A stretch of 64,000 nt of DNA from Halopiger xanaduensis SH-6 (GTDB lineage Archaea > Halobacteriota > Halobacteria > Halobacteriales > Natrialbaceae). The notes under the pieces were generated by a model that was not told the origin of the DNA, did not search any database, and saw only the letters and a program-made list of their open reading frames with translations. Of this stretch, positions 2,653 through 51,656 are shown piece by piece (position 1 is the stretch's first letter; each line of letters starts with the position of its first letter). Location: the NCBI RefSeq assembly GCF_000217715.1, contig NC_015666.1:1934270-1998269 (forward strand). The letters are read 5' to 3'. The translations under genes and the position numbers were made by a program.

Positions 2653-2695
2653 GCGGGCGCGCCCAGTGGGAGACAACGGAACGGACCCCACGCCA

Positions 2696-5344
2696 ATGAC
2701 GAGTCACTACGATCACGCGCAGGTGCAGGAGTTCTGGCAGTACGTCTGGGAGCGCGACGACGTCTACGAGCTCGACGAGGACGCCGCGGATCCGACCTAC
2801 GTCCTCGGAATGTTCCCCTACACGTCGGGGACGCTCCACATGGGCCACGTCCGCAACTACGCGATCACGGACGCCTACGCCCGCTACCGACGAATGCAGG
2901 GCGACGACGTCCTCCACCCGATGGGGTGGGACGCGTTCGGCCTCCCCGCCGAAAACGCCGCCTACGAGCGGGCGAGCGATCCCGAGTCGTGGACCCAGGC
3001 CTGCATTCGACGGATGCGCGAGGAACTCGAGACGATGGGCTTCGGCTACGATTGGTCGCGGGAGATTACCACCTGCGAGCCCGAGTACTACCAATGGAAC
3101 CAGTGGCTCTTCAAGCGGTTCTACGAGGAGGGGCTGGTCGAGTACGAGGCGGCGTCGGTCAACTGGTGTCCGGACTGTGAGACGGTGTTGGCGGACGCCC
3201 AAGTTGCAGAGCAGGAAACCGGCGACCGCGTCTGCTGGCGCTGCGAAACCCCCGTGGGCCGCCGCGAACTCGACCAGTGGTTCTTCACGATCACCGACTA
3301 CGCCGACGAGCTCTACGAGGGACTAGACGACCTCGAGGGCTGGCCCGACGGCGTTCGCGAGATCCAGCGCAACTGGATCGGCCGGCAGGAGGGGGTTCGA
3401 ATCACGTTCGACGTGCAGCGGGGGGAGACGACCGATGCCGTCGACGTGTTCAGTACCCGCCCCGACACCATCTACGGCGCGACCTACCTCGCGGTGTCGC
3501 CGGGCCACGAACTGGCGCGCGACCTCGCCGACGCGGACGAGGACGTCGCGGAGTACGTCGAACGCGTCCGTGAGCAGGATCCCGACGAGGTCGGCTTCTC
3601 GGGCGTCGAAACCGACGCGACGGCGGTCCACCCGCTGACCGGCGAGGAGTTGCCGGTCTACGTCGCCGGCTACGTCTTGGAGGACGTCGGCACCGGCGCG
3701 GTGATGGGCGTCCCCGCGCACAACGAGCGCGACCACGCGTTCGCCCGCGAGCACGACCTGCCGATCGAGGGCGTGATCGCGCCGACGGACGCCACCCGCG
3801 AGGTCGACCTCGAGAGCGAACCCTACACCGGCGAGGGAATCCTCGAGGACAGCGGCGACTACTCGGGACTCGAGAGCGAGACCGCCCGCGAGCGCCTCGT
3901 GGCCGACCACGACGCGCTCGAGGAGGACGTCACCTACCGCCTGCGCGACTGGCTGATCTCCCGGCAGCGCTACTGGGGGACGCCGATCCCGGTCGTCCAC
4001 TGCGACGACTGCGGCCCCGTGCTGGTGCCCGACGAGGACCTGCCCGTCGAACTGCCGGAGTTCGTCCGCACGACGGGGAACCCGCTCGAGGAACACGATT
4101 CGTTCCGCGAGACGGAGTGCCCCGAGTGCGGCGGGCCGGCGCGCCGCGAGACGGACACGATGGACACCTTCGTCGACTCCTCGTGGTACTACCTGCGGTT
4201 CCTCTCGCCCGACTACGACGACGGACCGTTCGACACCGAGCGGGCCGAGGAATGGATGCCGATCGACGTCTACGTCGGCGGCGACGAACACGCCGTGCTC
4301 CACCTGCTGTACATCCGGTTTTTCGCCCGGGCGCTGTCGGATCTCGGCCTGTTGGACTGCCGGGAGCCCGTCGAGGAACTCGTCAGCCAGGGGACGGTGC
4401 TGTACGACGGCGAGAAGATGTCCAGTTCGAAGGGGAACTCCGTCACGCCCCGGGAGTACGGCGCGGAGACCACGCGGCTGTTCGTCCTCTCGGCGGCCCA
4501 CCCCGAACAGGACTTCGAGTGGACCGCGAACAACGTTCGGGGCGCCTACGACCTCCAGCAGGACCTCTACTCGATGGCGACCGCGTTCGTCGAGGACGGC
4601 GACACCCGCCTCGAGCGCCGCCCCCACGACGAGTACCTCGCTCGAGAGATCGATCGGACGATCGCGGCGGTCACGGAGGAGTACGAGCGGTTCCGCTTCC
4701 ACCGCGCCGCGACAGAGATCCGGGAACTCGCGCAACTGCTCCGGCGCTACCGCGAGTACGACCGGCCGCACGACGAGACCTACCGCCGCGGGCTGCTGAC
4801 CTTGGCGGCGCTGATCGCGCCGATGGCGCCCCACCTCGGCGAGGAGTGCTGGAACAAGCTCCGTGGCGAAGGGCTGGTCGTCGAGGCCGACTGGCCCGAA
4901 CCCGAGCGTGAGGTCGACGACTACCGCCGCGAGCGTCGGCTGGTTGAACGCACCCTCGAGGACGTTCGCGACATCGTCGACGTCGCGGCGATCGACGAAC
5001 CCGAGCGGATCGAACTGGTCGTCGCGGAGGAGTGGAAGTACCGCGCGGCCGACCACCTCCGCGAACGGGAGGAAAGCGACGCCGACCTCGAAAGCGTCCT
5101 CGAGGCCGTCGACGCCGACGTCGACCGCGACGCGGTCGCGACCTTCCTCGCGGAGCGGGCCGATCGGACGGGCCGGGGAACCGAACCGGCGCTCGAGGCC
5201 GACCGCGAGCGGAACCTGCTCGAGCGCGCCGCGTGGCTCGTGACCGACGAGTTCGGCGCCGACGTCACGGTTCGGCGGGCGACCGGCGACGACGAGTTGG
5301 CGACGAAGGCCCGACCCGGAAAGCCGGCGATCCGCATCACCTAA
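2696..5344 (+). CDS. leuS: Leucyl-tRNA synthetase
   Basis: This cytoplasmic enzyme charges tRNA-Leu with leucine. The protein has 882 residues. The class I signatures are plain: HMGH at residues 48-51 inside [13 protein letters not shown] and the KMSKS-type loop [10 protein letters not shown] near 575. Between them are a Cys4 zinc-type ribbon (WCPDC...CWRC, about 160-185) and the CP1 editing domain (about 220-430, with [16 protein letters not shown]). A second CxxC pair (CDDCG, then CPECGGP) precedes the catalytic half. The C-terminal anticodon-binding region is complete. An in-frame GTG at 2666 would add ten residues, but the upstream TATA position favours ATG 2696. The gene stands alone. 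Confidence 0.97.
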
Positions 5345-5353
5345 CAGCCGCTG

Positions 5354-5362
5354 TTTTTGTCT
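5354..5362 (+). terminator. Oligo-T terminator after leuS
   Basis: A run of five T followed by GTCT starts 10 bp after the leuS stop codon, with another TTT about 10 bp further on. Archaeal RNA polymerase terminates at such T tracts. No strong hairpin precedes it. Confidence 0.4.
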
Positions 5363-5429
5363 GCTTTCTAGTACGATCGTGTAGGGAGCAACTTTTCTAA
5401 ATAGTCCCTCATTCGAAAACAGTGGCGTG

Positions 5430-5466
5430 AGCGGGCTTTCCCGCTTACCTTCGATATCGAAGGTAA
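5430..5466. promoter_or_regulatory. Hairpin plus 22-bp perfect palindrome upstream of the HalOD1 gene
   Basis: Two adjoining dyads are visible. AGCGGG-CTTT-CCCGCT (5430-5445) is a 6-bp stem with a 4-nt loop. A perfect 22-bp palindrome (5445-5466) has the half-site TTACCTTCGAT. The palindrome ends about 42 bp before a TATA-like CTTTATT (5507-5513), which itself is about 28 bp before the HalOD1 ATG. This position suits an activator or operator site. The binding protein is unknown. Confidence 0.5.
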
Positions 5467-5539
5467 ACGGATCGTACGTGTCAGGGGGTCGACCTCGGAA
5501 GGACAGCTTTATTCGATCGGACTGGGAATTGGGTCGTAT

Positions 5540-5836
5540 ATGAAGGGTGGCGGCGATAGTGTTGACGGGACGGTTCGCAAAACGCCGAGTCGTGCGGTCG
5601 TCGAAGCTGTCGCGGACGCTGAAGGGGTGTCGCCGACCGAACTGCGGCCACCCGAGTACGAGCCGTTACACGCGGCGGTCGACCCGGAAGCGCTCGATTC
5701 GCTGTTCGCCGACCGGGCCGACGGCTCGCCGCGATCGCACGGTTCCACCTCGTTTCACTACTGCGGTTACCGCGTCACCGTCGGCGCCGACGGCTCGGTC
5801 TCCCTCGAGTCGCTCGAGGACGACGACTCCGAGTGA
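5540..5836 (+). CDS. HalOD1 output domain protein
   Basis: This is a small acidic 98-residue protein. The segment SRAVVEAVADAEGVSPTELR followed by PLHAAVDPEALDSLF and then FHYCGYRVTVGADGSVSL matches the HalOD1 domain. That family of halobacterial output domains is found alone or fused to response regulators and is presumed to act in signalling. The ATG at 5540 has CTTTATT centred about 28 bp upstream, so the mRNA is probably leaderless. The palindrome at 5445-5466 may control it. Its partner and output are unknown. Confidence 0.85.
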   Translation: MKGGGDSVDGTVRKTPSRAVVEAVADAEGVSPTELRPPEYEPLHAAVDPEALDSLFADRADGSPRSHGSTSFHYCGYRVTVGADGSVSLESLEDDDSE

Positions 5837-5913: not shown

Positions 5914-6516
5914 ATGGCAACCGCGGACGCGAGACGACGACTTCGGAATCGGCCGATCGGCGCAACGATTCTGTTGACGATAGTCGGCTACGCGCTGGTT
6001 ATCGGTACGTTCGTGCTCGACGTACCGATCTACCCCGATCTGACGACCGCACAGATCAATCTCCTTTCGCACGCGATCGCGGTGATCAACTCGACGACGA
6101 CGGTGCTGCTCGTGCTTGGCTGGTACTGGATCCGACGGGGTGACGTCGGGAAGCACCGGCTGGCGATGATCGGTGCGTTCGCGCTGATCATGCTGTTCCT
6201 GGTCACGTACCTGATCAAGGTCGGCGGCGGGGGCGAGAAGCACTTCGTCGGCCCGGATCCGGTCTACTACGCGTACCTCGCGATGCTCGCGATCCACATC
6301 GTGCTGTCGGTCGTCTCCGTGCCGGTGGTGCTCTACGCGCTGATCCTCGGACTTACCCACACGCCGGCGGAGCTGCGAAACACCGCCCACGCCCGCGTCG
6401 GCCGGATCGCCGCCGCCTCGTGGATCCTCAGCCTCGTCCTCGGCGTCGTCACCTACGTCCTGCTCAACCACGTCTACGAGTACGAGTTCGCGGCGGTGCT
6501 CGTTCCCGCGCTGTAG
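5914..6516 (+). CDS. DUF420 (CtaM-like) membrane protein
   Basis: The protein has 200 residues with about five hydrophobic helices. The pattern FVLDVPIYPDLTTAQINLLSH, then STTTVLLVLGWYWIRRGDVGKHRLAM and the His-containing AIHIVLSVVSVPVVLY helix is that of DUF420. Bacterial relatives (CtaM/YozB) help mature heme A-containing cytochrome oxidases. Conserved His residues (in LLSH, KHR, IHI and NTAHARVG) could bind heme. A role in haem-copper oxidase assembly is inferred from the family; the heme A/O synthase fusion lies 19 kb away in this window. Confidence 0.85.
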   Translation: MATADARRRLRNRPIGATILLTIVGYALVIGTFVLDVPIYPDLTTAQINLLSHAIAVINSTTTVLLVLGWYWIRRGDVGKHRLAMIGAFALIMLFLVTYLIKVGGGGEKHFVGPDPVYYAYLAMLAIHIVLSVVSVPVVLYALILGLTHTPAELRNTAHARVGRIAAASWILSLVLGVVTYVLLNHVYEYEFAAVLVPAL

Positions 6517-12662: not shown

Positions 12663-13325
12663 ATGCGCTACCTCGAGGTGACCCTGCAGCGACCGCCGGC
12701 CGAGCAGCATCCGATGCACCGGTTCATCGTCGAACACGAGGGATACACCGCATCGCGGCTGCTCTACGGCCACCAGTACGGCGACGAGTACGCGATGCTG
12801 TTCTACATCGACGGGCCGCGACTCCCCTACGAGCCCGCCCTCGAGGACGCGCCGACGGTGCTCGACTACGAACTCGCACCGTGTCGCGACGATTCGTTCT
12901 ACCTGTACGTCCGAGAGTCGTTGACGGGCGCCGACCGAACGTTCGTGGACGCGGTCGAACAACCGGGGCTGATCATCATCCCGCCGGTAGAGTTCCGCGC
13001 AGACGGGACGATACGACTGGCTGCGGTCGGTCCCGACGAGGCGATCCAGACGGCGGTCGACGACGTGGCCGATACGGCGCGCGTCGACGTCCGCTCGGTC
13101 GGCGAGTACTGCGCCGGGCGAATCGACGCGCGGGTGGACCTGACCCGGCGCCAGTTCGAAGCCGTCTCGGCGGCCGTCGACTGCGGCTACTACCGCGCGA
13201 CCCGAAACGGGTCCCTCGAGGACGTCGCCGAGCGACTCGACTGCTCGAGCGGGACGGCGGGGGAGTTGCTCCGACGGGCCGAACGAACGGTCATGGCAGG
13301 GGTCGTTGACGGCGGGCCGTTCTGA
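12663..13325 (+). CDS. HTH_10 (Bat-like) transcriptional regulator
   Basis: The protein has 220 residues. The C-terminal 60 residues (VDLTRRQFEAVSAAVDCGYY, then ATRNGSLEDVAERLDCSSGTAGELLRRAE) are the bacterio-opsin-activator-type helix-turn-helix domain common in haloarchaea. The N-terminal part (MRYLEVTLQRPPAEQHPMHR) is a likely sensor domain with no ligand I can name. The ATG at 12663 starts with this family-like segment; the frame is open upstream to 12558 but covers a probable promoter. The gene is divergent from the RnfC-like gene, so it may regulate it. Confidence 0.85.
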   Translation: MRYLEVTLQRPPAEQHPMHRFIVEHEGYTASRLLYGHQYGDEYAMLFYIDGPRLPYEPALEDAPTVLDYELAPCRDDSFYLYVRESLTGADRTFVDAVEQPGLIIIPPVEFRADGTIRLAAVGPDEAIQTAVDDVADTARVDVRSVGEYCAGRIDARVDLTRRQFEAVSAAVDCGYYRATRNGSLEDVAERLDCSSGTAGELLRRAERTVMAGVVDGGPF

Positions 13326-50345: not shown

Positions 50346-51656
50346 ATGACATCAGCTAATTCCACGTCCGAATACGAATCCGTGTCCGAGTCCGAGTCCG
50401 AACGCGAGCGCGATCCGGAGAGCGCCGTCGAAACCGCCCGTCGCCAACTCGAGCGCGCGGCCGCCCACCTCGACGTCGACGACGGCATCATCGAGCGACT
50501 GCAGCACCCGACGAGCGTGTACCGGGTGTCGATCCCGCTCGAGCGCGACGACGGGAGCACGGAGATGCTCACGGGCTATCGCGCCCATCACGACAGCGTC
50601 CGCGGCCCGTACAAGGGCGGACTCCGCTACCATCCCGACGTGACCGAGGACGAGTGTATCGGCCTCTCGATGTGGATGACCTGGAAGTGTGCGGTGATGG
50701 ACATCCCCTTCGGCGGCGGCAAGGGCGGCGTCGTCGTCAACCCGAAGGACCTCAGTCGCGACGAGAAAGAGCGGCTCACCCGCCGGTTCGCGGAGGAACT
50801 GCGGCCGATAATCGGGCCGATGACGGACATCCCGGCCCCCGATATGGGAACCGATCCGCAGACGATGGCGTGGTTCATGGACGCCTACTCGATGCAGCAG
50901 GGCCAGACCGAGCCCGGCGTCGTCACCGGCAAACCGCCGGTCGTCGGCGGCTCCTACGGCCGCGAGGAAGCGCCCGGCCGAAGCGTCGGGATCATCACCC
51001 GGGAGACGATCGAGTACTACGACTGGGACCCCGAGGAGACGACCGTCGCCGTGCAGGGATTCGGCAGCGTCGGCGCGAACGCGGCCCGGTACCTCGACGA
51101 GCTGGGGACGTCCGTCGTCGCCGTCTCGGACGTCGACGGCGCGATCTACGACCCCGACGGCCTCGACACCACCGACGTCGAGGACCACGACGAGACGCCG
51201 GGGATGGTTTCGGGCTACGACGCCCCCGAAACGCTGTCGAACGAGGCCCTGCTCGAGTTGGACGTCGACGTGCTCATCCCCGCGGCCGTCGGCAACGTCC
51301 TGACGGCCGAGAACGCTCGCGACGTGCAGGCCGGGATGATCGTCGAGGGTGCGAACGGCCCGACGACCTCGAGGGCCGACGAAATCTTCGAGGAGCGCGG
51401 GGTGCCGGTCGTGCCCGACATCATCGCCAACGCCGGCGGCGTCACCGTGAGCTACTTCGAGTGGCTGCAGGACATCAACCGCCGCTCGTGGCGCCACGAG
51501 CGGGTCAACGAGGAACTCGAGACGGAGATGCTCCGAGCCTGGAACGCCGTCCGGTCGGAGTACGAGGACCGGGACGTCACCTGGCGGGACGCGACCTACA
51601 TCGTCGCGCTCTCGCGGATCGCCGCGGCGCACGAGGCGCGCGGGCTCTGGCCGTAG
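50346..51656 (+). CDS. gdhB: Glutamate dehydrogenase (Glu/Leu/Phe/Val family), copy 1
   Basis: The protein has 436 residues and interconverts glutamate and 2-oxoglutarate. Catalytic Lys residues are in [18 protein letters not shown] (Lys90), [10 protein letters not shown] (Lys114) and [10 protein letters not shown] (Lys126). The nucleotide-binding GFGSVG is at 238-243. The first 25 residues are a Ser-Glu dipeptide repeat ([12 protein letters not shown]). It shares about half its residues with copy 2 at 55085, from which it is separated by the replication origin. Whether it uses NAD or NADP cannot be fixed by eye. The gdhB symbol only follows the paralogue order used in other haloarchaea. Confidence 0.92.

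Follow-up and report, generated by a model that had tools for sequence, protein, structure and literature searches.

A conserved 16-bp dyad ahead of a stand-alone HalOD1 gene in Halopiger xanaduensis as a putative operator, with mch as a candidate second target

The window analysed here is a 64,000-nucleotide stretch of the Halopiger xanaduensis SH-6 genome (C3:1934270-1998269 of 4,355,268 bases on four contigs). A palindrome lies in it between leuS and a short gene for a HalOD1 protein, and the features around this palindrome are as follows.

2666-5344, plus strand: leuS, the upstream neighbour, in the same direction
5427-5448, plus strand: second hairpin of the first-pass annotation, arms 5427-5435 and 5440-5448, 8/9 paired
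5441-5470, no strand: imperfect extension of the palindrome, 14/15 pairs
5445-5466, no strand: perfect 22-bp palindrome in the own genome, that is, the core plus 3 bp on either side
5448-5463, no strand: putative operator core CCTTCGATATCGAAGG, 16 bp, conserved in 38/91 HalOD1 upstream regions; 21/23 exact sites in the family genomes are at this promoter
5464-5497, no strand: spacer, nearly fixed in length, unconserved in sequence
5498-5514, plus strand: conserved core promoter GAAGGACAGCTTTATTC, including the TATA-like TTTATT at 5508
5540-5836, plus strand: HalOD1 gene, 98 aa, the presumed target (PF18545, E 1e-24; NF053557 DdfA, 85.8 bits)
5914-6516, plus strand: DUF420 gene, the downstream neighbour (PF04238, E 6e-38)

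The first-pass annotation had described a perfect 22-bp palindrome about 42 bp ahead of the TATA box, and both statements hold: TTACCTTCGATATCGAAGGTAA is perfect over 5445-5466, and 41 bases separate its end from TTTATT, which starts at 5508. If one mismatched pair is allowed, the palindrome stretches to 5441-5470. Within its own genome the 22-mer occurs a single time, even when up to three mismatches are tolerated. The further statement that its length lies far beyond chance for this window proved too strong. Because perfect palindromes with arms of at least 11 arose in 5/60 dinucleotide shuffles of the window, and because a second perfect 22-bp palindrome lies at 51482-51503, palindrome length by itself is weak evidence against chance. 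(The second palindrome falls within an open frame of 384 codons, presumably a glutamate dehydrogenase gene.) Conservation, rather than length, is what raises the palindrome near leuS above chance. In the sister species (G001, L003) it is perfect only over the 16-bp core, not over the whole 22 bp. The proposed operator stands as a well-supported putative site before HalOD1, but with the 16-bp core and not the full 22 bp as its conserved unit. The overlapping hairpin is present in the window but missing from the sister species; it gains no support as part of the element and probably does not belong to the operator.

The gene behind this site does encode, as had been claimed, a stand-alone HalOD1 protein: PF18545 covers residues 14-89 of its 98 amino acids (86.9 bits against a cut-off of 26.3). 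It also passes the NCBIfam DdfA model NF053557 (85.8 against a cut-off of 70, with the window protein alone scored). The ddfA gene order with sph3 and rdfA is missing here, the neighbours being leuS, DUF420 and a PNPOx-like gene. According to the excerpted text of PMC5847659, the HalOD1 signalling domain is very widespread among haloarchaea, with more than 2,000 proteins and up to 49 copies per genome; its stand-alone members are numerous and uncharacterised, and the mechanism of the domain is described there as unknown. We found 23 HalOD1 matches in the H. xanaduensis genome. Of two other HalOD1 proteins, DdfA is required for the disk shape of Haloferax volcanii (HVO_2176; PMC10869688, in part), and HVO_0777 increases roughly tenfold when salt is low (PMC12852389, in part). 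The structure model of the window protein is weak (pLDDT 65.2, pTM 0.49) and consists of helices followed by a beta hairpin. Compared with the PDB, it had no match at E 0.001 or better, and a sequence search of structures returned just two designed proteins at E 0.02-0.06.

We searched for HalOD1 relatives in 61 genomes (24 from other families) and in 125 Natrialbaceae genomes, and collected 91 upstream regions (L002-L031 and L061-L121), roughly one best match per genome, with a few distant paralogs among them (L027, L028, L030 and L031). The alignment gave estimated start codons, and the best match to the core was sought in a 270-base stretch reaching slightly beyond the start, position playing no part in the choice. 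In 38 of these 91 Natrialbaceae regions, 12-16 of the 16 core positions were matched, and in all 38 the core starts 84-97 bp before the start codon. The remaining 53 regions reach just 9-11/16, at scattered places. The first-pass annotation had staked its reading on the presence of the palindrome in orthologous promoters, and these turn out to be divided: 38/91 keep the core, in a narrow position, which leaves that reading unrefuted, but 53/91 lack it. Positive regions come from 16 of 26 genera, and the core is complete (16/16) in seven named loci, from Halopiger goleimassiliensis, H. djelfimassiliensis, Haloterrigena salina, Natronorubrum texcoconense, two Natronolimnohabitans and Natrialba swarupiae. 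With leuS upstream, 32/73 regions are positive; without it, 6/18. Because 6/38 positives have no leuS within the upstream DNA examined, the element belongs with the HalOD1 promoter.

The negative regions are concentrated in certain genera (g9, 25/25; g8, 5/5; g3, 6/8), the all-negative g9 including Natrinema regions and one Haloterrigena sp. H1. Other genera are mixed, with 7/10 regions positive in g5, 5/6 in g28 and 3/4 in g29. The absence of the core from 53/91 regions suggests that, where it is missing, the control is dispensable or has been replaced. Close to where the operator would stand, the operator-negative Natrinema regions L089 and L094 have a shorter TCGATATCGA-like dyad, perhaps a decayed copy of it; L092 carries this dyad with a single change.

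The distance between the core and the downstream promoter is nearly fixed. Among the 38 positives, TTAT follows the core after 45 bases in 23 regions, 44 in five, 47 in five, 46 in two, 43 in one and 36 in two; in 36/38 the offset thus falls within 43-47 bases, a constrained position of the kind an operator would occupy. Over the 23 positive regions with an offset of 45, mean pairwise identity reached 0.96 for the palindrome (a value partly built in, since the regions were selected by that very match) and 0.88 for the core promoter, against 0.65 for the stretch from TATA to start, 0.35 for the spacer and 0.31 for the 5' flank. Such a near-constant distance over a spacer of variable sequence suggests a protein acting jointly with the basal machinery.

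The conservation of the core promoter, for its part, is independent of the palindrome, because a match to GAAGGACAGNTTTATT with at most two mismatches (of the form GAAGGACAG-N-TTTATT) is kept in 33/53 operator-negative regions as well as in 33/38 operator-positive ones. The stretch GAAGGACAG-N-TTTATTC (window 5498-5514) is unusually conserved even in regions without the palindrome. Its zero-mismatch match in the own genome lies only at HalOD1. As a marker for a regulon we rejected it: GAAGGACANNTTTATT with at most two mismatches gave five matches in the own genome against six for a reversed control. At HalOD1 some 30 bp separate the TATA box from the start codon, so transcription would probably begin close to it, and the dyad would lie near -80. 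The dyad is centred about 52 bp upstream of the TATA box.

The site is rare. Across the 125 Natrialbaceae genomes the exact 16-mer occurs 23 times, in 22 genomes; 21 of these sites are at the HalOD1 promoter, and the two others (in G030, and a second site in G137) fall in open frames. Order-wide, 20/392 genomes carry it (96 of the 392 being Natrialbaceae by our own count). Outside Natrialbaceae, it is found among the 392 only in G049 and G161, before homologous 217-aa BAT/HTH_10 genes. Relaxed to a 14-mer, the search of the 125 family genomes returned 46 sites: 25 at HalOD1, 4 at mch and 17 elsewhere, the last comprising 9 in coding frames and 8 intergenic or undetermined, which we left out of the regulon. 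The best reading of these counts would give the factor bound at the dyad one or two targets per genome. At three of the loci (L271, L278 and L279, from G135 twice and G139) the 14-mer stands 23 bp before a sugar-nucleotidyltransferase-like gene (best model TIGR03992, below its cut-off); G135 and G139 are both without the HalOD1 operator. In viral contigs, the exact 16-mer turned up in 22 stretches, mostly in phage coding frames, and these look coincidental.

In its own genome the 14-mer CTTCGATATCGAAG occurs twice, at HalOD1 and 101 bp before mch, the gene for methenyltetrahydromethanopterin cyclohydrolase (TIGR03120, 287.9 bits against a cut-off of 228.8). The latter copy lies at L246:1501-1514 (G000:C3:348056-348069), and corresponding copies stand in L273, L276 and L277, all 100-101 bp before mch and, in two genera, between a CopZ-like HMA gene and mch. 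Of the 124 genomes with an mch match, 91 had their mch promoters examined. Four contain the 14-mer (G000, which is the own genome, G001, G020 and G132; genera g1 and g20); in the other 87 the site is absent, with at most 11/14 positions matched. All four sites begin 72 bp before GTTTTA, an identical spacing, and all four genomes carry the HalOD1 operator at 16/16. The flanks of the mch site differ between g1 and g20. A 27-row mch tree does not place the two genera side by side and requires two changes, of which well-supported branches force only one. The dyad-to-TATA distance is 14 bp longer at mch than at HalOD1, which does not fit a geometry common to both sites. The first-pass annotation had hoped that the operator would open a route to the HalOD1 pathway; this is borne out only in part, by one candidate co-regulated gene, mch, in four genomes.

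In our view, a dimeric activator of HalOD1, and probably of mch too, likely uses the 16-bp dyad as its operator. The observations behind this reading are the conservation of the dyad, its position, its rarity in the genome and the mch sites; from them we infer that a dimer binds the dyad and that one factor is common to both genes. In this model, a homodimeric transcription factor would control one HalOD1 gene and, bound upstream of the basal promoter, would most likely help TBP/TFB and RNA polymerase to start; the same factor would probably also control mch, in the own genus and one other. Activation is moderately favoured over repression because the dyad lies upstream of BRE and TATA, as TrmB activation sites generally do. 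The operator is new as a site, and as a putative transcription-factor operator it is an element of an ordinary kind. No description of it appeared in the parts of the literature surveyed on core sub-strings, haloarchaeal dyad motifs and transcription factors, and no title matched by core sub-strings concerned archaea.

The main competitor keeps the operator and reverses its sign: a repressor dimer might loop over the promoter, perhaps with the help of a weaker copy between TATA and start. The TATA-to-start stretch is indeed rather conserved (identity 0.65), and in several negatives the best, poor match lies there (for example 11/16 in L219, 27 bp ahead of the start). This presumed second copy, however, is weak and forms no clean dyad, and the main dyad is clear of the TATA box and BRE, unlike the sites of TrmB-repressed genes generally (PMC10817205, in the text available), so that we regard repression as doubtful, if the most credible of the alternatives. 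Autoregulation, with the HalOD1 protein bound to the palindrome before its own gene, would explain why the exact core is nearly limited to the HalOD1 promoter in each genome, and helices followed by a beta hairpin, in a weak model, would suit it. Yet half of the orthologous HalOD1 genes are without the site, mch carries it in four genomes, and the protein is acidic, its low-confidence model (pLDDT 65) resembling nothing in the PDB at E 0.001 or better; autoregulation is hence improbable.

Nor does an RNA element account well for the data. The RNA of 5420-5475 folds as two hairpins (-20.6 kcal/mol, z -2.3), which could act on the leuS transcript, at its 3' end, as a terminator or stabiliser. 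But 5300-5600 holds no terminator-like site (stem plus T-run), a feature that archaeal termination may not need, and the spacing is held to the downstream TATA box, leuS is absent from the examined upstream DNA of 6/38 positives and the mch sites come after a different gene, all of which makes this reading very improbable. A functionless chance palindrome, whose length 5/60 shuffles equal or exceed, can be practically set aside given a core at one position in 38/91 regions and 16/26 genera with the TTAT spacing conserved too.

Related dyads bear on the class of the factor. The HalOD1 site shares the form TTCGANNTCGAA, and in this respect of sequence form only it has the HTH_10/Bat-type form. 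Paired TTCGANNTCGAA dyads stand before a 217-aa BAT/HTH_10 gene, C3:210340, at L150:1386-1440 (G000:C3:210225-210279). Similar pairs, one partner sometimes mismatched, were seen in L148, L149, L151-L154, L124 and L125, and one more copy stands 115 bp ahead of the next gene. The seven closest family relatives (own genome included), together with G049 and G161, have at least one exact TTCGANNTCGAA within 200 bp upstream, and in all nine a partner dyad with at most one mismatch is found at a distance of 41-44 bp; upstream of the seven relatives that come next, such dyads are absent. The paired dyads are probably this gene's own operator, a view well supported by their presence in all nine, set against 58 copies of TTCGANNTCGAA in the whole own genome.

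The presence of this HTH_10 gene does not follow the HalOD1 operator: close matches are found in 7/125 family genomes, of which five are operator-positive and two negative (G094 and G139), and most operator-positive genomes are without a relative that close. The gene thus possibly hints at the class of the regulator and not at the regulator itself. An HTH_10/Bat-type factor is a tentative assignment that we hold at less than even confidence; otherwise the factor may be of the Lrp/AsnC or another winged-helix type. The own genome has 52 HTH_10 domain matches. Among the 30 whose loci were scanned, TTCGANNTCGAA precedes the C3:210340 gene only and is in-frame in three others; 8/30 loci extend less than 160 bp upstream of the first start, which places those promoters outside the scan. 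In the first 30 kb of the window, an acid-index ORF scan found no regulator beside HalOD1, though it overlooked an HTH_10 gene at 13140-13298. The 258-aa frame with this match (E 2e-11) lies roughly 7 kb downstream of HalOD1.

For the regulator of one HalOD1 protein, a conserved operator makes a concrete bait; presence or absence of the site within genera offers natural pairs in which that regulator could be sought by comparison, and the mch sites supply a second target. More speculatively, and in our view with rather low probability, a near-single-target regulator may act on one HalOD1 paralogue through a position-locked upstream site and have been recruited a second time to mch in two genera, which would connect one-carbon metabolism carried by methanopterin with an orphan signalling module.

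Among known systems, DdfA has the same domain as the window protein, which passes the NCBIfam DdfA model; the ddfA gene of Haloferax volcanii differs in its neighbours, sph3 and rdfA as against leuS and DUF420, and the available portion of its description mentions no operator (PMC10869688). The C3:210340-group dyads resemble the HalOD1 operator in having the same TTCGANNTCGAA form, and the exact 16-mer occurs there in two other-family genomes. They are, however, usually paired 41-44 bp apart with variable flanks and centre, whereas the HalOD1 dyad is single. The denitrification motif CGAAYATDKTYG of Haloferax mediterranei, for which Bat-type regulators such as NarO and DmsR are discussed as candidates (PMC11218638, excerpted), is likewise a promoter dyad of CGAA/TTCG letters; its half-sites and spacing differ, and a TTCG-ATAT-CGAA core does not fit that consensus. 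In Haloarcula hispanica, TrmB sites upstream of BRE/TATA are generally associated with activation and those over BRE with repression, with one exception (PMC10817205), and CsmR of Haloferax volcanii recognises TATCA(N4)TGATA, a motif present in 50/65 CsmR peaks (PMC13286277), as far as the consulted sections of both reports go. Both are, like the HalOD1 operator, promoter dyads placed relative to the TATA box, but they differ from it in sequence and serve many targets, in contrast to the one or two HalOD1-type sites per genome.
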